Positions 7,141 to 62,866 of a stretch of 64,000 nucleotides of DNA are shown one piece after another (position 1 is the first letter of the stretch; each line of letters begins with the position of its first letter). Under the pieces are notes generated by a model. It saw only the letters and a program-made list of their open reading frames with translations, had not been told where the DNA came from and ran no database searches. The translations under genes and the position numbers were made by a program. This stretch comes from Gigantopelta aegis. Lineage: Eukaryota > Mollusca > Gastropoda > Neomphalida > Peltospiridae. The stretch spans positions 103,244,973 to 103,308,972 of the forward strand of contig NC_054702.1 of NCBI RefSeq assembly GCF_016097555.1. The letters are read 5' to 3'.

Positions 7141-8740
7141 CTACTCAAAAGAATTTAAGGGTCAGACGATATTTTCGACATTATTTTCTGAATGTCAATT
7201 ATATTAGCTAGACCATAATGTCACGCATGGTATTGTTCTATTTTGACGAAAGTGGGTCTAAGCAACCCATAAATTAATTAAAATCCACTGTCATTGACAC
7301 TGTCGACTAGTTCTAATGGCGAAAACATGCTTACATTTGCACGTAAATTAGGGCGAAAGCGAAAGGTCTGCTAAGTGCCCATAACTTGCTTTTTCACAAA
7401 GCGCTTCATTTGCACGCTTTGCACGTGTATTCCATGTTCCCAATGCTGAATTTCCGTATAATTGGAGCTTGCGTTCGTGTACGGTGCACACTCCAAATTC
7501 GACAATGGTACGACTTCAACTGACTATCGAAGATCGAGGAAGGGCTATTGCTTGGCTTCAGGATGGCAATATGCAAAGAAATGTTGCTGTGAGACTTGGT
7601 GTCAGTCAGAGTGTCGTTGGCCGACTGTGGCAACGGTACCAAGCAACGAATTCTGTTCGAAATCGTCCACGTTCGGGAAGACCCCGAAGCACTACAAATA
7701 GAGAGGACCGCTACATCACCAATATGGCTCTACGTCAACGCACAACCACTGCACGCCGATTACATGACAATCTGCGGACTGCGACTGGAACTCGAGTGTC
7801 TGATCAAACCATACGCAATCGTCTGAGAGCCAATAATCTACGCTGCCGTCGCCAGGCTGTTCGACCACCACTCCTACCACGTCACAGAATGGCCAGACGT
7901 CACTGGTGCACGCTTCATCTGCGGTGGCAACATGTTCAGTGGGGTCGAGTGATGTTCACTGATGAGTCCAGGTTTAGTCTCCAGTTCAACGACGGTCGGG
8001 TTCGTGTCTACAGACGTCCTGGGGAGCGCTTCGCTGACGTTAACGTTAGACAACGTCACCGGTTCGGTGGTGGCAGTGTCATGATGTGGGGCGGCATCTC
8101 TATCCACCACAGGACCCCCCTCTATGTGGTGGATGGCAATCTGAATGGAATCCGCTATCTGAATGAGATTATCCGGCCGTTGGTTCTCCCAGGCCTTCAG
8201 CAGATTGGCGGCGGGGCAGTTCTGCAGGATGACAATGCCAGACCCCACCACGCCAGGGTGGTAACAGACTTTCTCAGACAACAAGGTATCGCCAGGATGG
8301 ATTGGCCAGCATATTCGCCTGACTTGGCCCCAATAGAGAACGCCTGGGACAAATTAGGCAGGAGAGTTCGGATAACCATGCCCCTCCGGCCAACCTTCAT
8401 GATCTGGGTCAACTTCTTATGGCAGAGTGGCAGGCCATTCCCCAAGAGTTCTTCAGACGTCTGATCAACAGCATGAGGCAACGATGTGTCGAGTATATTC
8501 GCGCCAGGGGTGGATTCACACACTATTAAACGAATGTTCTAATGTGTAAAATCCATGTTTGACAACCTTCAACTTTGACAGCATGTCATGTGACTTTCTT
8601 GTATACAGTGACGTTTATTTGTGGTTTTTTGTAAATATGGAACAATAAAAAAAAAAATTGGTGTAGTTTACATCATCAATCTAATACACTCTGAAACTTA
8701 TTTGGTTATAAATTTTTGACCCTTAAATTCTTTTGAGTAG
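7141..8740 (+). mobile_element. Tc1-like DNA transposon, 1.6 kb
   Basis: Perfect 24-bp terminal inverted repeats beginning CTACTCAAAAGAATTTAAGG at 7141-7164 and inverted at 8717-8740, each flanked by TA (7139-7140, 8741-8742), the target dinucleotide of Tc1/mariner. It encloses one transposase gene in plus orientation. Perfect termini and a near-intact reading frame imply a fairly recent insertion. Confidence 0.95.
7505..8529 (+). pseudogene. Tc1-like transposase (DD34E), one frameshift
   Basis: Cuts and rejoins transposon DNA at its TIRs. I place the start at MVRLQLTIEDRGRAI (7505); an in-frame ATG exists upstream at 7469. The N-terminal paired-like DNA-binding region includes GVSQSVVGRLWQRY and the RPRSGRPR (GRPR-type) motif at roughly residues 55-62. 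The catalytic core has D in MFTDESRFS, D in DDNARPHHA and E in SPDLAPIENAWD, 34 residues apart, the Tc1 signature. After GRRVRIT the frame changes near 8381-8391, where one base looks lost in a C run. The expected C-terminus (NLHDLGQLLMAEWQ ... RARGGFTHY) follows in the next frame to a stop at 8527-8529. The unshifted frame instead ends at 8464. Probably inactive unless the shift is a sequencing error. Confidence 0.9.
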
Positions 8741-11780: not shown

Positions 11781-12740
11781 ACTGATGACGAAGCCAGATG
11801 ACTAGTAAAAGACGTTCAGCCAAGGAATGCAGGGATGTGCATGACTTGCAGGCGGAGGGGGATGTCGCGTTGTCACCTGAAGTGTGTTCACCATCTCAGG
11901 GAATCACCACGCTGAAGGAACTGTGTGAGCAACGATGGAGAGAAATCAAGCTGTCGGCTCAAAAGCTGTCCAACACAAACGTCAGGGCAGTGGATGCTGA
12001 CAAGTCTCTGTTGCAGATACTTCAAGAAAAAGAAAAATGTGTGCAGGCTGAAATTAAGATTCTGAAAACCTCAAAAGCAGACAGATTGCCTCCGGATCCT
12101 AATGTTCAGTTCGAAGTCTTGAAGCAGGATCTTCTCTCAAGTATTGAACAGTTGGAGGAGACTCTGTCCTTAGCCGGGTCACAGGAGCAAGAGTTAAAAA
12201 ATTCAATAGAGAAAGAACAAGAGTATGAGCGACAGTTACTGACAGTTAACCATCATCTCGAGGAGAAAGTGGAAAGCTTCGATGATGGACCCATGTCAAA
12301 CACTCGTGATCCACTGTCCGCTGTATTTAAAGAACTGCAAGCAAAAATAAAGAAAGTGGAGCTTGTTGATAAACAGCTGTCAAAAGATTTTGATACATTT
12401 TTGACGCAGCATTTTCCACTACCCACCGAAAATGATCTGAAAGTGTATAAGAAAACTCTGCGGAGGACAAACAGTGGTAATGGTGCTCATAATTTACTGA
12501 CTTTGAAGACTATTCTTGAGGAATTGATGAACAAATGTATTGATGAGCCCCATGATCCATACATTACCCTGACAGACTGGTACTGGTCACCGTACATTGA
12601 GCTCCTTACGCGGTGTCAGATAGTTCTACATCACCCAGATCATGACAACAAAATTAAGCTAGTGCCTTTCCATTTGTGAAAAACCCCACCCCAGAAAACA
12701 GCTTCAAGGATTTTCTTTTGTTGCAAAATTCCTAAATAAA
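11781..12740 (+). other. CENP-K terminal exon (with 5' leader and poly(A) signal)
   Basis: A plausible 3' splice site (TTTTGTTTTGTTGCAG) ends at 11780, so the visible exon probably starts at 11781. A TGA in frame with the CDS at 11786-11788 shows translation must begin in this exon. An upstream ATG at 11785 opens a six-codon uORF (MTKPDD) that ends at 11805, overlapping the true start. AATAAA lies at 12735-12740, 56 nt after the stop. The upstream leader exon is not identified. Confidence 0.6.
11798..12679 (+). CDS. CENPK: Centromere protein K (CENP-K), single coding exon
   Basis: A 293-residue subunit of the constitutive centromere-associated network; in vertebrates it works with CENP-H/I/M on the inner kinetochore of CENP-A chromatin. 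The identification rests on the C-terminal third: FLTQHFPLP, LLTLKTILEELMNK, DEPHDPYITL, WYWSPYIELLTRC and a closing HPDHDNKIKLVPFHL align by memory with human CENP-K (FLEDHFPLP, LITLHEMLEILINR, DVPHDPYVKI, FWPPYVELLLR, RLEAFH). Residues about 75-165 are charged and heptad-like, the expected coiled coil. Length is close to the human 269 aa; the N-terminal ~35 residues are not obviously conserved. The frame is uninterrupted by introns, whereas the mammalian gene has many, so an ancient retrocopy or intron loss is possible. PTGR2 follows 3.3 kb downstream on the same strand. Confidence 0.93.
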   Translation: MTSKRRSAKECRDVHDLQAEGDVALSPEVCSPSQGITTLKELCEQRWREIKLSAQKLSNTNVRAVDADKSLLQILQEKEKCVQAEIKILKTSKADRLPPDPNVQFEVLKQDLLSSIEQLEETLSLAGSQEQELKNSIEKEQEYERQLLTVNHHLEEKVESFDDGPMSNTRDPLSAVFKELQAKIKKVELVDKQLSKDFDTFLTQHFPLPTENDLKVYKKTLRRTNSGNGAHNLLTLKTILEELMNKCIDEPHDPYITLTDWYWSPYIELLTRCQIVLHHPDHDNKIKLVPFHL

Positions 12741-54230: not shown

Positions 54231-57200
54231 GATTCGTCACGAGTATTTTTTAATATGGAAAATATCAACCGAGTCTATGTTAATTGGTATTTTTCTCGGC
54301 AGAACCTCGACAAATACCAATTAACTAGACATGGTTGATATTTTACATATTAAAAAACACGAGTAGCGAATTCTATTTATCCTATAACACTTCGAAAATA
54401 ACATTTTAATTAATTGTTTAGTAAATCACAGTACTAAAGTCGCCGCCATCGGTAATATGACGTCATCAAGATTAGCGCAGATTAGTTTAACGTCACACAT
54501 TTTAAACAAATCTTTGAAAACGTTACGCTCCGGTACACAGGTCTTGTTGGCTTGTAAGCAAATGAATCATCTACGGCAACACATAACCTAGAGACTTTGC
54601 AAATTTGCATACCATTATTAACCGGGTTAATAAAGTAAATTATCACATGGGTTTATGACATGGATATCATGGGTAAGTTATAGGATAAATATATATATAT
54701 ATATATATATATTATTTATTTGATGTAAAAAAAAACCCAGTCAGTTGGCTGGATTGGAACCTTCATTTGTTGTCATTTAAAATAATAAGTCAGTTGGCAA
54801 GATTCGAACATATTACCCAACCTGCATAGCATTTTGACAATCCATTGCATTATGGTATAAGAAATGGGTTCCCATAACTTGTTTTCATGGAACCTAAAAA
54901 CAGCTTCCGATGGGTTCCGATGATCTCAGGGCACAGAACCCAAAAAGTGTTTCCATGAAATTTGAAATCCTATGGCTTGTGCTGTTGTTTTAGCAGAGTT
55001 AATTTGAAACTGAAAAGTACTTTGTTATTTCCAGTGGACTGCGGATCGGACAATGATGACGTAGACTTGAAAATAAGGTATCTGTTGAGAGAATCGCCAT
55101 GTGCACAAGAGTTTGACGGCATAGAAAATAATGCTGTAAGTTAACAGAGAAAAGAAATATTTGTTTGATTACACCTCAGCACATTTTACTTACTGCTGTT
55201 TGAAGACAACAATATTTTAGCTTTTTATGTGCATTAAATATAACATATTCAGCATATTTTGTATGTGCATTAAATATAACATATTCAACATATTTTGTAT
55301 GTGCATTAAATATAACATATTCAACATATTTTTTATGTACTTTATTTGTTTCATCTTTAAATTTTATATTTTGTCTACAATTATAAAAAATATAAAAATA
55401 CCAATGTGTAAATGGTATGCTCAATATGAAAATTTGTGACTACTGTAGAATACTAGCGTGGAATTTATTTTCGCGTTTTTCGTGTGTGAATGAAATTCGT
55501 GAAAATATATTCCACGCAAAAATAAAGGCCGACAAAAAAGGGAAAAAATGTAGTCTCATTCAACTATACCACATTAGTTTCCGATGTACGAGGTTAGTAG
55601 TATCAAAGCGGTGCTCCCTCCTGTCACGGAACAAACCACAAAACACAAAAGCTGTTTAAAACTTTAAATCAAGAACACGATGATACATGATAATAAAACA
55701 CTAAAAAGCTTTATGCTGTTTTCCTTCGCATGTGCTAGCGATCAGTTCATCGGACAGAGTCTACACGTGTTAAACGACGGAAGTAAACATGCATTATCAC
55801 AGTATATTAAAAATGTGGAAGTGAAAATATCTGGTCTGGGCTATTTTCAGATGTTTCACAATAAAGTCTTGATTGGTTAAAGCAGGAAAACTATTGTTTT
55901 ATGTGTATAGCACTCATGTGTACATGTAGGATTAGTTCTACAGATTAGCGTAACAACCGGCAAAACTAAGTTCCGTTTTTAAAACAAAATTATTGACATC
56001 TGTACTTCGGTTTTTTTATTGATGGGGGTTGGGGGATTCGCGAAAATAAATGTTCGCAAATTGACCCATTTTCATTAAATCTCGAAAATTTTATTCCGCG
56101 AAAATAAAGTTTTCAATTTTGACAGGGATGAAGGCAAGAAGACCATTTTATTTTAATGTGGCAAAGCATAGTAATAATGTTTTTTAAATTTGAATGATGT
56201 TAGTCCATCTAATTATGTTTTAAGAAAATATAATTTAGAAAATTGCACTATTTTCAAAATATGGATATGAAGTGAAATTTCAGCAACATATGTCAATCCT
56301 ACAACTAACGGTTAGTTTAATGTTTGATATGCAGACCTCCCTAAAAAAATATATCACTAATATGTCACAATATGTTTATATTTTATTATTTACAGTAATA
56401 TTGTTTATATTTTATGATTTACAGTAATACAAATATGGTAACAGTTATTCTTGTTTCAAGTAGGCAGTTCACAATAGCCATTGATAAGAATAACACTTTA
56501 TTAAAAGTGTAGGTGTGTTTGTATTTTGCAAATATAATAAATGATGTTAGAATAATGTTTGTAACTTTAAGGCCTTGTTTATTTTTGTCTTTTCAGGAGA
56601 TAATGAACAGCTATTTGCAGCACCCCGAAACAGTGTTAAATACACATTTTGACTATTCAAAGTTTTCCTACATTTTGAATACTACTACTGAAAAATGTGC
56701 CCAACACAGTTCTCATATTAACTTAGTAAGTTTTTGTTGTTGTTTTGCTGAATGTATAATGACTTGCTCTTTGATGTTCAAAAAAGTCTTTGAGGTCATA
56801 TCAATCATATTTAGCAGATTGCCTGGTTTCTAATTAATACATGCTGAGTGGTAAATGTATGTCATTGGATGCATGATGTGGACCACAATGACGGTGATGT
56901 AAAACATGCTCTAATAAAATGAAATTGAAATTTTACCAACTTTTCACCAATATACTTAGTATATATATAGCAGTGTAAGAATAAGAATAATTTTTCACTA
57001 GTCCATCGGACAAATACCGGTACATCTAGAAATTACTTGTCCGCCAATATTTTCACTTGTCCAAATAAATGGATTGATTTATTCAAGTACCAGGATGATG
57101 TTTTTGATTGCTAAAAATAAAATTGTAGTGAAAATTTCTACTTGTCCACTGGACAACCACCAAGGAACATTTTGCTTATCCAAATAGATTTTCATTTGTC

Positions 57201-57571: not shown

Positions 57572-60500
57572 CTAATTTAGTCCCATTCCCTATTATAATT
57601 ACAATATTATAACTATAATAGACAGTGTCTATCAAATTGTCCCAATCATACTTGGTAACCCCCCTTCTGCCGTGGATATTGGCATGGCAAAGCTGTTAGG
57701 TTAGGTTCCAATCTGCACTTCTCTGGCAATTCTCTGTGTCGATATTCTATTAAAATAAAAAGTGTCCATACATTTATAGTCCGTGGACGTAATATACGGT
57801 AAATAAACAATACAAAAACATTTATAGTGGACGAATTGTCCAAGAACAATTTTTGGTTGTAGACGAATCATCTCGAGTTCAACAGTAAACAAATTTTTAG
57901 TGGACAAATCGTCTGTGGACAAAACATCCAGAGGACGAATCATCTGCATCCCGTTGTACTGAGGACAACTGCAATATATCCATTATATTCTAAGTAGAAT
58001 TTGTGCACGCATCAGAATAAGTCGGAAACAGTCTATCAGGTTAATAGTGGGTTACTACATACCATTAAAAAAAAAAAAGTTTGTTTTGTTTAACAACACC
58101 ACTAAAGCACACTGATTTATTAATCATCAGCTATTGGATGTCAAACATTAGGTTGTTCTGACATATAGTCTTAGAGAGGAAACCTGCTACATTTTTTCGT
58201 TAGTAGCAAGAGATATTTTATATGCAATATCCCACAGACACTGACAGGATATCACATACCACAGCCTTTGATATACCAGTCATGGTGCACTGGCTGGAAC
58301 AAGAAATAACCCAATTGGCCCACCGACGGGGATCGATCCCACACTGACCGAGCATCAGGTGAGCGCTTTACCACTGTGCTACGATGTGCCATTAAAGTCC
58401 TGAATGGTACATATGGAGTTATTAATAATATTATATGATAATATGCAAGTGTAGAGCTTAAAGCCCATATGGGAACCCACCACTGTCATTGAAGTTTTTG
58501 AATTCATGTCTGGTGATGTAAGTTTCCTACAGTGAATGATTTAATTTCTTATTTTATTTTACTTGCAAATATTTTCAGGAATTTGGTCCTCAAAGTCCTC
58601 AGATGGTTATTGTGAAACAAGCGGTGAGTGTTTATTGGGGATGATTAACATTACTTGATTGGCACATAAAGGTGATCATGAAAATAATTTGGATATGCCC
58701 TGAATTTATTATTACCAGTATGAGTGTTCTTTAAGTGTTGTGTTTCAGACTAAAACACCATTTGCATGCATATTTCATTCAAGAACAAGGTCATGTGGTC
58801 ATGTTCATTTGTAAATTGAAGCTTTTCCAATCACTATAGTCTACACACTTAAATAACAACCATAGTGGCAATTTTTATAGTCTACACATTTAAATAGTAG
58901 CAACTATAATGGCAGTTTTTTCAGCCGTTACAGTCTACACATTTAAATAGTAGCAACCATAATGGCAGTTTTTATAGTCTACACATTTAAATAGTTGCAA
59001 CCATAATACCTTTTTTTCCAACGGCTATAGTCTACACATTTAAATAGCAAACATAATGACAGTTTTTCCAGACCCTAGTCTACACATTTATGTAGTGGCA
59101 GCCATAATAGCTGCATGCATGTCATTGTAAAAATATGAACATTTAAGCCCTCAAAACAAAATGTATTTCTCAGTAATTTAATAATGTTAACGAGTTTTAA
59201 TTCTTTTACATTGTACAGCAAGTTACAAAAAACTTAACAAGAATGAATAATTACTGTTGTAGAATTAATATGAAATTAACAAAGGTTAGTGTTTGTGTAA
59301 TGTTAAAATGTATGACATACATTCATTAAAAAGCCTCTGGCCCGAAATACAGTCAATTTACACAATTTAAGAGCATGCATTATATGATTTAGTCACATAA
59401 CGGTCTGCCATTTAATTTTATATTATAGTAACAGTAAGTCCGTGCATTTATAAATATTCAGTATAAAAAAAGATCACCATTCATTCTCAATCTAAATACA
59501 TAGTATAAGAATTTTGATAAATTTAGTAAAAAAAAAATGTTTTGAGATGACATCAGATTAATGAAGATAATTGTAAATGGTTGACCAGCATTTACTTTCA
59601 CAAAGGGCATGCATACAAATAATACATGGAGCTGATCTTCAATAAAAAAAAAAAACCTGGTTATTATCTTGACAAAAAGTGCATAATCTTCTCTCACATA
59701 CAATATTAAAAAATTTACCCGTATCTACACACAAACCAAAACTATTACATCTAAATTTTGATAATGCAATTTGGAATCTAAAGGGGATATTCATGTATAA
59801 ATAACATTCAACATTTAATAGAGATTTATACTGGTTATAATAATAGCAAGAATTTTAACTGCTCATAGAGGATGCCCATTCTTGTTGTAGAATATCATAT
59901 AGTCTTTGCTTAAATATATTAATACAATATTGCATCCTGGCTTGTCCATACAAATCCAAAACCAAGTTTGAAAAGAATTTGTTTAATGCCTGTCGCCCAA
60001 GTAGTATGACCTGCATCATCAAGAGATTTAAGCACGACATGACTCTGTCTTGGCAATCTGAAAAGAGGAAGCTCTATTAATTTGCACCAGTATTTGATAG
60101 CACGAGTCATGTAAATAAGTTGGAGAGGAGCTCTTCCACACTCACCTAATACCATATAATTTTTTTACTGACTTCCCCACCTTTAAAAGGTGTTTACAAA
60201 ATTTAATCTAACAAGTCTCATCAATGATGCTTTTTCTCAATGATTAAAGAACAATCTGTACAATAATTGAAAAAACCCACTTGTGTGGTTTGAGATTTAA
60301 CGTACAAATTTAAAACATGACTGGATTGTATGTTAATTTCATTTGAAGTAATATAAATCCATCTACATATTGATGATATTATTTTAGGCTCCAGAAAAAA
60401 CGGGAAATCAGTCGACAACAGTTGGACAGCCAGTTGCACGAGCAAAACGAGCAGCTACAGAGGGGACGTCGTCCATGCCCACTACAGTAACTGTATCTCA

Positions 60501-62866
60501 AAAGGTAATGTGCCATGCCAACTACAGTAACTGTATCTCAGAAAGTAGTGTGCCATGCCAACTACAGTAACTATCTCAGAAGGTAATGTGCCATGCCAAC
60601 TATAGTAACTGTCTCAGAAGGTAATGTGCCATGCCAACTACAGTAACTGTATCTCAGAAGGTAATGTGCCATGCCAACTACAGTAACTGTATCTCAGAAG
60701 GTAATGTGCCATGACAACTACAGTGACTGTATCTCAGAAGGTAATGTGCCATGCCAACTATAGTAACTGTCTCAGAAGGTAATGTGCCATGCCAACTACA
60801 GTAACTATCTCAGAAGGTAGTGTGCCATGCCAACTACAGTAACTGTATCTCAGAAGGTAATGTGCCATGCCAACTACAGTAACTATCTCAGAAGGTAATG
60901 TGCCATGCCAACTACATTACTGTATCTCACAAGATAGTGTGCCATGCCAACTACAGTAACTGTATTTCAGAAGGTAGTGTGCCATGCCAACTACAGTAAC
61001 TGTATCTCAGAAGGTAGTGTGCCATGCCAACTACAGTAACTGTATCTCACAAGGTAGCGTGCCATGCCAACTACAGTAACTGTATCTCACAAGGTAATCT
61101 CAGAAGGTAATGTGCCATGCCAACTACAGTAACTGTATCTCAGAAGGTAATGTGCCATGCCAACTACAGTAACTGTATCTCACAAGGTAGTGTGCCATGC
61201 CAACTACAGTAACTGTATCTCAGAAGGTAGTGTGCCGTGCCAACTACAGTAACTGTATCTCAGAAGGTAATGTGCCGTGCCAACTACAGTAACTGTATCT
61301 CAGAAGGTAATGTGCCGTGCCAACTACAGTAACTGTATCTCAGAAGGTAATGTGCCGTGCCAACTACAGTAACTGTATCTCAGAAGGTAATGTGCCGTGC
61401 TAACTACAATGACTGATCTCAGAAGGTAATGTGCCATGCCAACTACAGTAACTGTATCTCAGATGGTAATGTGCCATGCCCACTACAGTAACTATCTCAG
61501 AAGGTAATGTGCCATGCCAACTACAGTAACTGTATCTCAGAATGTAGTGTGCCATGCCAACTACAGTAACTGTATCTCAGAATGTAGTGTGCCATGCCAA
61601 CTACAGTAACTGTATCTCAGAAGGTAATGTGCCATGCCAACTATAGTACCTGTATCTCAGAAGGTAATGTGTCATGCCAACTACAGTAACTGTATCTCAG
61701 ATGGTAATGTGCCATGCCCACTACAGTAACTATCTCAGAAGGTAATGTTCCATGCCAAATACAGTAACTGTATCTCAGAAGGTAGTGTGCCATGCCAACT
61801 ACAGTAACTGTATCTCAGAAGGTAATGTGCCATGCCAACTACAGTAACTGTATCTCAGAAGGTAGTGTGCCATGCCAACTACAGTAACTGTATCTCAGAA
61901 GGTAATGTGCCATGCCAACTACAGTAACTGTATCTCAGAAGGTAATGTGTCATGCCAACTACAGTAACTGTATCTCAGATGGTAATGTGCCATGCCCACT
62001 ACAGTAACTCTATCTCAGAAGGTAATGTGCCATGCCCACTACAGTAACTGTATCTCAGAAGGTAATGTGCCATGCCAACTACAGTAACTGTATCTCAGAA
62101 GGTAGTGTGCCATGACAACTACAGTAACTCTATCTCAGAAAGTAATGTGTCATGCCAACTACAGTAACTGTATCTCAGAAGGTAGTGTGCCATGACAACT
62201 ACAGTAACTCTATCTCAGAAAGTAATGTGTCATGCCAACTACAGTAACTGTATCTCAGAAGGTAATGTGCCATGACAACTACAGTAACTGTATCTCAGAA
62301 GGTAGTGTGCCATGACAACTACAGTAACTCTATCTCAGAAAGTAATGTGTCATGCCAACTACAGTAACTGTATCTCAGAAGGTAGTGTGCCATGACAACT
62401 ACAGTAACTCTATCTCAGAAAGTAATGTGTCATGCCAACTACAGTAACTGTATCTCAGAAGGTAATGTGCCATGACAACTACAGTAACTCTATCTCAGAA
62501 GGTAATGTGTTCAGCAGCAGGAAGGAAAAACTTATGGGCCTGTCCTTGTGAACCTTTTGTGTTTTTCATTATTCTATTGAGCCTGAACCTAGTGTGTTTT
62601 TCATTGTTCTATTGTCAGCCTGAACCTAGTGTGTTTTTCATTGTTCTATTGTCAGCCTGAACCTAGTGTGTTTTTCATTGATCTTTTGTCAGCCTTGACC
62701 TAGTGTGTTTTTCATTGTTCTATTATTAGCCTGGACCTTTTGTGTTTTTCATTGATCTTTTGTGAGCCTGGACCTTTTGTGTTTTTTCATTGTTTATAAT
62801 ATATAATTTTCACGCTTCAATCTATTTTACTTACAGATGACGACAACGACTACAAAAAAACCTGAC
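43743..62866 (+). CDS. TMEM87-like GOLD-domain membrane protein, first seven coding exons (3' end outside window)
   Basis: Exons: 43743-43841, 50899-50959, 55035-55135, 56597-56725, 58579-58623, 60388-60504, 62837-62866; all junctions GT-AG and in frame, giving 194 residues so far. Residues 1-20 (MAISVYKIFLILLVSNYIRC) are a signal peptide. The lumenal part contains VWTVNYNSETKVHAFPKC, NTKISVTMDC, DVDLKIRYLLRESPCAQEF, EIMNSYLQHP and LNTTTEKC. Spacing of W, F-K, NTxI, the D-L-I-YL block and three cysteines matches, by memory, the lumenal GOLD-type domain of TMEM87A/B (Golgi seven-helix proteins). Exons 6-7 add a linker: an NQST sequon, a furin-like RAKR (about residues 163-166) and a Thr-rich tail (MTTTTTKKPD). 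No membrane helices are reached yet. Exon 6 ends in the first unit of a 2-kb minisatellite. Other GOLD/7TM relatives remain possible. Confidence 0.65.
45715..45740. repeat. Poly-G tract
   Basis: Two G runs broken by a T, followed by TTTTCCCTACCTACCTACCC. In intron 1 of the TMEM87-like gene. Confidence 0.85.
46036..46059. repeat. Poly-C tract
   Basis: About 23 C in a row. Two such tracts (also 46840-46868) lie within 0.9 kb in the same intron. Confidence 0.9.
46110..46226 (+). mobile_element. SINE-B, 5'-truncated
   Basis: GTGGCAACAGCGGGTTTCCT, ACCATATGTCTGACGCCATA and AGTGCATCGTTAAATAAAAA: the 3' third of SINE-B with an A-rich end. In intron 1 of the TMEM87-like gene. Confidence 0.8.
46595..46690. 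repeat. Degenerate short repeat, about 5 units of GTCATTTCGTACCATA
   Basis: TAGTCATTTCGTACCATAGT, CACTTCATACCATAGTG, GTCATTTTCGTACCACA, GTCATTTCGTACCATA, GCCATTTCGTACTTGG in direct succession. Confidence 0.8.
46840..46868. repeat. Poly-C tract
   Basis: About 28 C in a row after ACGAGACGA. Confidence 0.9.
47510..47750. repeat. Dispersed repeat, copy 2 (partner 39982-40235), with hairpin
   Basis: As copy 1, and its right half contains TCTGACTGTAATGAGAGC paired with GCTCTCTTACAGTCAGA about 40 bp later, forming a stem. Class unknown. Confidence 0.6.
48352..48456. mobile_element. Short fold-back element
   Basis: GGGTAGGACTTTACTTTGGC then ACTGTCA at the left pairs with TGACAGTGCCCAAGGTAAGT then CCTTCCC at the right; loop about 50 bp. 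Probably a MITE. Confidence 0.6.
49190..49835. mobile_element. Long-TIR dispersed repeat, copy C (fold-back form)
   Basis: ACTCAAAATTATTTATAGTT and GGACCCGATATCGGTAATTT match the right part of copies A and B. It then carries both arm orientations close together: 49505-49676 and 49705-49840 are mutual reverse complements, joined at CATAATGCAGTTAGGGACG...CATCGTTATGC. Confidence 0.6.
49859..49950 (+). mobile_element. SINE-A, 5'-truncated
   Basis: GTCAGAATTACCAAATGTTT, AATAAATCAATGTGCTCCAG and TGTTGTTAAACAAAATAAAC, the 3' end of SINE-A, directly after repeat copy C. Confidence 0.75.
52199..52534 (+). mobile_element. SINE-A-like, full-length with a SINE-B-like segment
   Basis: tRNA-like head (GAGTTGGTTGAGTGCTTGCT; GCAGGATCGAACC as box B), TGGGCCCATTGGGCTATTTC, GGTGCATATAAAAGATCCCT, then AGTGGCGACAGCGGGTTTCC as in SINE-B, and a SINE-A tail TGTGCTCTAGTGGTGTCGTT. 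Looks like a module hybrid. Confidence 0.8.
53013..53398 (-). mobile_element. SINE-B, full-length
   Basis: Tail at the left (TTTAACGACGCACTCAACAC), head complement at the right (CACGACGCCACCGAGGCCGG). Flanked by the 13-bp direct repeat GTATGTAATGTGG at 53000-53012 and 53399-53411. Very close to the copy at 6343-6729, so the family was active relatively recently. Confidence 0.92.
54162..54230. repeat. (TA)n(GA)n microsatellite
   Basis: A-rich run, then about 53 bp of TA units, then GA units. Confidence 0.95.
54233..54376. mobile_element. Fold-back MITE
   Basis: CACGAGTATTTTTTAATATG, AAAATATCAACC and TTAATTGGTATTT at the left pair with AAATACCAATTAA, GGTTGATATTTTACATATTA and AAAACACGAGTAG at the right; arms of about 65 bp, loop about 10 bp. 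In intron 2 of the TMEM87-like gene. Confidence 0.75.
55228..55340. repeat. Tandem repeat, nearly 3 units of 42 bp
   Basis: Unit TATGTGCATTAAATATAACA followed by TATTCARCATATTTTG. In intron 3 of the TMEM87-like gene, about 90 bp after exon 3. Confidence 0.9.
57271..57953. mobile_element. Fold-back region built from GGACGAATYRTC words
   Basis: The left part reads GGTTCGTCCACTGTACAATT and CGTCCACTCACCTCAGACAA. The right part carries the complement repeatedly: GTGGACGAATTGTCC, GTAGACGAATCATCT, GTGGACAAATCGTC, GGACGAATCATCTGC. Between them lie a TA tract (57534-57568) and ordinary AT-rich sequence. Class unknown. Confidence 0.45.
58074..58385 (-). mobile_element. SINE-A, full-length
   Basis: GTTTGTTTTGTTTAACAACA after an A run at the left; head complement ACCGAGCATCAGGTGAGCGC and ACCACTGTGCTACGATG at the right. 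CCATTAAA on both sides is a likely target duplication. In intron 4 of the TMEM87-like gene, about 190 bp before exon 5. Confidence 0.85.
58838..59100. repeat. Degenerate tandem repeat, about 5 units
   Basis: Units contain TATAGTCTACACATTTAAAT, AGTAGCAACCATAATGGCAG and TTTTT, with spacing of about 45-60 bp. In intron 5 of the TMEM87-like gene, 200 bp after exon 5. Confidence 0.85.
60455..62508 (+). repeat. Exon-derived minisatellite, about 50 units of 40 bp, each with a splice-donor motif
   Basis: The unit is 40 bp: ATGCCAACTACAGTAACTGT, ATCTCAGAAG, then GTAATGTGCC. The first unit is the 3' end of exon 6 (TCTCAAAAG followed by GTAATG at 60505). Later units repeat the exon end plus the first ten intron bases. 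Variants are GTAGTG for GTAATG, loss of TG (38-bp units), GTCATG, ACAACT and CCCACT. Runs of shared variants show local re-expansion, for example the CCGTGCC block at 61230-61400 and the alternating GACAACT/GTCATG block at 62100-62480. The array ends at GTAATGTGTTCAGC. Reading through more than two units in the exon 6 frame meets a TAA. Confidence 0.95.
62565..62800. repeat. Second tandem repeat, about 6 units of 37 bp
   Basis: Unit CCTGAACCTAGTGTGTTTTT followed by CATTGTTCTATTGTCAG, variants GACCTTTTGTG and GATCTTTTG. Each unit ends in a pyrimidine-rich stretch and TCAG, so it resembles a 3' splice-site region. It lies between the minisatellite and exon 7. Confidence 0.9.

Follow-up and report, generated by a model that had tools for sequence, protein, structure and literature searches.

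Tandem repeats that span an exon-intron boundary and carry splice signals form an already known class. In the human gene 6-16 (IFI6, also G1P3) the repeat unit of such a minisatellite is 12 nt long; the original study is reportedly that of Turri et al. 1995. Two downstream units of this donor minisatellite serve as donors, resulting in three mRNAs (PMC4526556; here and below, statements on published systems follow excerpts of the papers cited). In lancelets, tandem repeats called mirages lie across exon-intron boundaries, many of their units bear AG/GT and their length is unstable; they apparently leave regular splicing undisturbed and evolve in concert within clusters (PMC3087553, PMC3902484). 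They occur in Adh3, TnC and the globins BflGb6 and BflGb9, and PGBD5 is similar (PMC3087553, PMC3902484). Human segmental duplications, too, have tandem repeats at exon-intron boundaries, and minisatellite variation there can yield new splice patterns and introns (PMC2812944). In this study we describe a new and large example of this class from the gastropod Gigantopelta aegis: a minisatellite of 51 units at the end of a predicted exon of a gene that we assign, from its predicted protein, to TMEM87A/B. It lies in a stretch of 64,000 nt (the window; C4:103244973-103308972, C4 being contig NC_054702.1) of an assembly of 1.149 Gb in 5216 contigs, and positions are those of the window unless a contig is named. 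The array is quite likely a long, near-neutral minisatellite of the mirage type whose first donor is the one used, and it is probably tolerated rather than useful. The features concerned are the following (a slash marks a splice point).

60388..60504, plus strand: predicted linker exon 6, 117 nt, phase 0-0, Thr/Ser-rich (AG/GT borders, open frame onward, gain in the PF21901 score)
60473..62509, plus strand: minisatellite, 51 units of ~40 nt (Tandem Repeats Finder (TRF), cutting by script, comparison with the consensus)
60473..60512, plus strand: unit 1, sole coding unit, bearing the predicted donor (cutting by script, comparison with the consensus)
60505..60506, plus strand: predicted donor GT of the normal transcript, AAG/GTAATG (frame into exon 7, 96.8th percentile)
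60568..60570, plus strand: in-frame stop TAA common to predicted transcripts from donor-like sites 3-51 (frame joins, 49/51 sites)
62837..62866, plus strand: predicted micro-exon 7, 30 nt, phase 0-0, MTTTTTKKPD (borders, frame, splice percentiles)

TRF reports the array with a period of 40 and 51.0 copies; a 120-nt period outscores the 40-nt one. Cutting by script resulted in 51 units in head-to-tail order, of which 41 have 40 nt, seven 38, two 39 and one 53; a unit consists of 32 nt that correspond to the end of the predicted exon and 8 nt that correspond to the start of the intron. A first-pass annotation of the window had already recognized some 50 copies of an exon end with its own splice donor, and this holds; its limits of 60455..62508 and its division of the unit into 30 + 10 nt are corrected by our measurements. 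Deviations from the unit consensus occupy 89 of 2040 cells (~4.4%, leaving out a 13-nt insertion in unit 16). Remnants of the unit were not found upstream in the exon, in the preceding intron and just downstream of the array, where the best local scores were equalled by 24-42% of shuffles. The near-palindrome TACAGTAACTGTA, present in 34 copies within the array, might assist slippage. Folding of the RNA of three units was no better than that of shuffles (z -0.16). Coding by the array beyond unit 1 was considered and ruled out, the longest open reading frame (ORF) wholly inside being 38 codons on the plus and 58 on the minus strand. Since the locus is known from a single assembly and one haplotype, the copy number could in principle be inflated or collapsed by assembly, but this is very improbable: the units comprise 29 distinct sequences in an ordered pattern, the stretch contains no N, and a second copy was not found on other contigs.

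The donor GT is retained in 50 of the 51 units. AAG/GTA[AG]TG, which had been ascribed to each copy, stands in 39 of them, 28 with AAG/GTAATG (the predicted true donor included) and 11 with AAG/GTAGTG. Over the 51 units the donor 9-mers are AAGGTAATG (28), AAGGTAGTG (11), AAAGTAATG (4), ATGGTAATG (3), AATGTAGTG (2), and, once each, AAAGTAGTG, AAGGTAGCG and the broken AAGATAGTG. Unit 16 carries an additional donor-like AAGGTAATC, so that there are 51 donor-like sites in total (50 units + 1). Hence the repeat unit itself resembles a splice donor, as in IFI6, and the earlier impression of about 50 near-equal competitors behind the true donor is borne out by 50 later sites, 27 of them with the identical 9-mer; the predicted donor has no local advantage. 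Equally good donors are held by 7.3% of random 40-mers. Ranked against 7587 GTs from 124 kb of non-array sequence, AAGGTAATG stands at the 96.8th and AAGGTAGTG at the 92.8th percentile; all splice percentiles in this text come from human frequency matrices and are rough. The energy of the duplex with U1 is -7.6 kcal/mol for AAGGTAATG and -8.5 for AAGGTAGTG, compared to -14.0 for a perfect site.

When the 51 donor-like sites are joined to exon 7, the first (60505) is the sole one to give an open frame. Site 2 leads to a frame shift with a stop soon after, and sites 3 to 51 (49/51) all read into the TAA at 60568. As only donor 60505 keeps the frame, units 2-51 are to be regarded as intronic. The first-pass annotation was right that 40 is not a multiple of 3 and that a later donor shifts the frame. 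It had also suggested that array length could change the Thr/Ser-rich linker, and here the prediction differs: with only unit 1 coding, and units 2-51 downstream of the sole frame-keeping donor, array length should leave the linker unchanged, and on the predicted frame those units cannot alter it without a frameshift or a premature stop. From what is established about nonsense-mediated decay, transcripts from later donors would be expected to undergo it.

These numbers invite the idea that the array is a bank of harmful donors, in which U1 binds at many sites, some transcripts stop at 60568 and are degraded, and array length tunes the level of TMEM87. The 27 further copies of the predicted donor's 9-mer and the 11 GTAGTG sites that pair better with U1 fit such a function, as does the fact that all 50 later sites lead to a frameshift or stop, and IFI6 offers a precedent for the use of downstream repeat donors. 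The break of frame by later sites is nevertheless no evidence of design, because nearly any later donor would break it. Moreover, there is no sign of stronger conservation in the donor columns than in the rest of the unit (six substitution types in nine columns, as compared with 16 in the remaining 31), consensus-type units all have T at +5 and are far from a full match to U1, and lancelet mirages are reported not to disturb splicing. We therefore regard a function of this kind as unlikely.

Some observations weigh against a neutral array with use of the first donor. The 11 GTAGTG units exceed the predicted donor in pairing with U1, with the matrix ranking them below it. IFI6, with a comparable array, does employ two downstream units. 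Within the donor GT only 1 of 102 cells is changed, a rate lower than the mean of 4.4% for the array; this would fit retention, although the copies are not independent. Finally, the acceptor of exon 6 stands at just the 70th percentile, so the exon may be alternative. As for the array's own history, units no more than 3 positions apart resemble each other more closely than after shuffling of their order (2.91 differences, compared with 3.20; 1 of 2000 shuffles was as low) and the four-unit block 42-45 is repeated at 47-50, which is ordinary tandem turnover. We think that slippage or unequal exchange would have multiplied the linker exon/intron junction in tandem until there were 51 copies. Splicing from the first donor would remove the intron including units 2-51, this donor lying at the end of an exon of normal size, and later donors would be silent or of low use, any transcript from them bearing a frameshift or premature stop.

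The reverse order of events might also be considered, in which the exon reached a pre-existing intronic minisatellite, whose first unit then supplied the last 32 nt of the exon and its donor. The boundary would lie at unit 1 under either origin, the PDB search gave no alignment between the linker and TMEM87A, and exon 6, being symmetric (phase 0-0), would be free to change. Against this, unit 1 differs from the consensus at two positions and both differences are synonymous, as in older coding sequence, a weak argument given that, of the 96 single changes possible, 26 would be synonymous (chance ~0.07); likewise, no degenerate unit was found upstream in the exon. We consider that the exon rather improbably came second to the array, and prefer duplication from the exon.

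The units also carry acceptor-like motifs. TATCTCAG stands immediately before AAG in 32 places of the array, fewer than the 'each unit' of the first-pass annotation, and CAGAAGGTA[AG]TG in 37. It had been proposed that CAG/AAG/GT forms 3-nt exons or ratchet points for recursive splicing, and the motif is indeed found in 37 places, with insertion of AAG keeping the frame. The acceptors are weak, however: in the commonest unit type (24 copies) the AG directly before GT (AAG/G) reaches the 72.5th percentile and CAG/A the 80.8th, so that a strong acceptor is not joined directly to the donor, and the AGs of this common unit as a whole lie at the 72nd-82nd percentile. The best AG among the 12 commonest types listed, ACTACAG/T in five units, is at the 92.3rd. 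The intron, moreover, is just 2.3 kb long. Splicing of this sort hardly seems probable to us, and first-donor use stays the preferred reading.

Assignment of the host gene comes from several protein matches. The GOST_TM family (PF06814) has seven matches in the genome, of which four lie on the plus strand of C4 (103312450-103321318, E 3.7e-8 to 7e-5), ~5 to 14 kb downstream of the array; two of these cross a stop, as expected at exon ends. The other three, of which C10 carries two and C4 one (at 31.6 Mb), are weak. The joined translation of the downstream GOST_TM stretch matches solved TMEM87A chains in the PDB at 3e-43. Six predicted exons share one common frame: exons 6 and 7, the two at C4:103311436-103311544 and C4:103312270-103312331, and the following two.

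55035..55135, plus strand: predicted TMEM87 exon, N-terminal part of GOLD (AG/GT borders, phase fitting the next exon, PF21901)
56597..56725, plus strand: predicted TMEM87 exon, GOLD (AG/GT borders, 129 nt, phase 0-0, PF21901)

The joined exon protein matches TMEM87A-B_GOLD (PF21901) in a single stretch with E 2e-8 and 35.3 bits (cut-off 24.9); leaving out the two linker exons splits the match into two stretches, with 29.6 bits. A PDB search with the joined protein matched TMEM87A at 1.7e-19, covering the part that follows the linker. Because of the PF21901, GOST_TM and TMEM87A matches, the array is placed behind a linker exon in the GOLD-domain part of a TMEM87A/B gene. Linker exons 6 and 7 are predictions backed by frame, position and the PF21901 gain, not by residue-level conservation; the acceptor of micro-exon 7 is at the 96.3rd and its donor at the 98.6th percentile. 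An initial model was out of frame at the first transmembrane segment. A phase-matched exon search of 62867-67290 with score thresholds gave seven candidates, of which a motif filter left one, 66464-66572, and adding it lengthened the TMEM87A match. An extra exon at ~55750 was dropped as it lacks a good donor; models with it gave PF21901 E 0.08, 0.072 or no match. The final model omits that exon and includes 66464-66572 and 67298-67359, and the PF21901 gain does not come from the omission alone. Searched genome-wide, PF21901 gave no match on C4 and three weak ones elsewhere, which can happen with split exons. Dystroglycan, suggested by TTTTTKKP and RAKR motifs, was rejected: DAG1 (PF05454) has two matches above the cut-off, both on C3, and three weaker ones on C6, C2 and C2803, none at the array locus.

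A 26-mer taken from the unit, with at most 2 mismatches allowed, was found 42 times in the 1.15 Gb genome, all 42 inside the array, and neither the reverse strand nor a reversed control gave a match genome-wide. As far as this search reaches, the unit is thus no dispersed repeat. We surveyed minisatellites (period 10-150, TRF score at least 50) in 124 kb at the locus and in six other 10 kb stretches. They cover 5% of the former (3.5% without the array) and 10% of the latter, unevenly, most being in one stretch (L033) and none in another (L035). With such coverage, an array that meets an exon end is unsurprising. Arrays longer than 2 kb are less common; in these 184 kb they are the present one and one in L033, a sampled stretch of C5 (positions 1-2075, at the stretch edge). 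The same intron contains a second array.

62549..62794, plus strand: second minisatellite, 37 nt x 6.7 (TRF; acceptor-like TTGTTCTATTGTCAG)

Its acceptor-like tract ends in CAG, with TTGTTCTATTGTCAG in two units and TTGATCTTTTGTCAG in a third, and is at the 96.6th percentile in these three. A 29-mer of it has four matches in the genome, all at the locus. We do not regard it as a matching 'acceptor array', as 5.8% of random 37-mers carry an equally good acceptor. Joined to donor 60505, each of six AG acceptors that precede exon 7 (five belong to this second array) leads to an early stop.

Elsewhere in the window, 11789-12676 is an uninterrupted ORF matching CENP-K (PF11802, E 2.2e-48), and 7385-8461 an ORF of 359 aa that by eye resembles a Tc1/mariner-type transposase. 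About 28-48 kb downstream of the window on C4 (joined coordinates 92166-111529) there are several pieces, on both strands, that by eye resemble NPC2/ML-domain exons. A near-whole COX1 with six in-frame TGA inside contig C6 (C6:42729340-42730680) is either a mitochondrial insert or an assembly join. C-terminal domains of mollusc-type hemocyanin, a family to our knowledge confined to molluscs, were found in five places, all on the small contigs C2783 and C5121, where contamination is possible; one hemocyanin ORF there matches PDB hemocyanins including KLH1.

How does the TMEM87 array compare to the described systems? Like mirages, it spans a (predicted) exon-intron boundary, unit 1 being the end of exon 6 plus the donor, and its units carry splice signals; the unit of 40 nt is within the reported 10-160 bp (PMC3087553). 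In contrast to mirages it belongs to a mollusc and another gene, its 51 units compare with 6 and 3 in two BflGb6 haplotypes, and whereas RT-PCR (reverse transcription PCR) was carried out in lancelets, the present array is known from genome sequence alone. From IFI6 it differs in that every later donor breaks the frame and donor use is predicted. Repeats in human segmental duplications have a mean of 4 copies of 30 bp and occur in recent paralogs (PMC2812944). In abalone, an intron of a TSSK1-like gene contains a polymorphic minisatellite with a 27-bp unit; it is shown with 62 repeats, and the repeat number varies among individuals (PMC6905558). Long variable intronic arrays are hence known in molluscs; in the excerpt that case is described as plain intronic, with exon end and splice sites unmentioned. 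An intronic variable number tandem repeat in ABCA7 is reported to affect splicing, a likeness judged by title description (PMC5954066). Earthworm metallothionein repeats (PMC12783039) and the C. elegans CeRep25B minisatellite near alternative exons (PMC4039745) were set aside as, in the form described, they are not boundary-spanning donor arrays. Among the matches listed from the open-licence literature there was no mirage-like case from a mollusc.

It might be possible that unit number serves as a heritable dial. Every unit added would be one more competitor for U1 binding and all would share one stop, so that the amount of TMEM87 would vary by individual with the protein unchanged; we hold this to be quite unlikely. 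As it stands, the TMEM87 array suggests that mirage-like arrays also exist outside lancelets. It also provides an extreme natural test of donor choice: the same 9-mer donor occurs 28 times in series, and the first alone is predicted to keep the frame. If RNA were to reveal clean use of this first donor, position and exon length, and not local sequence, would be what decides.
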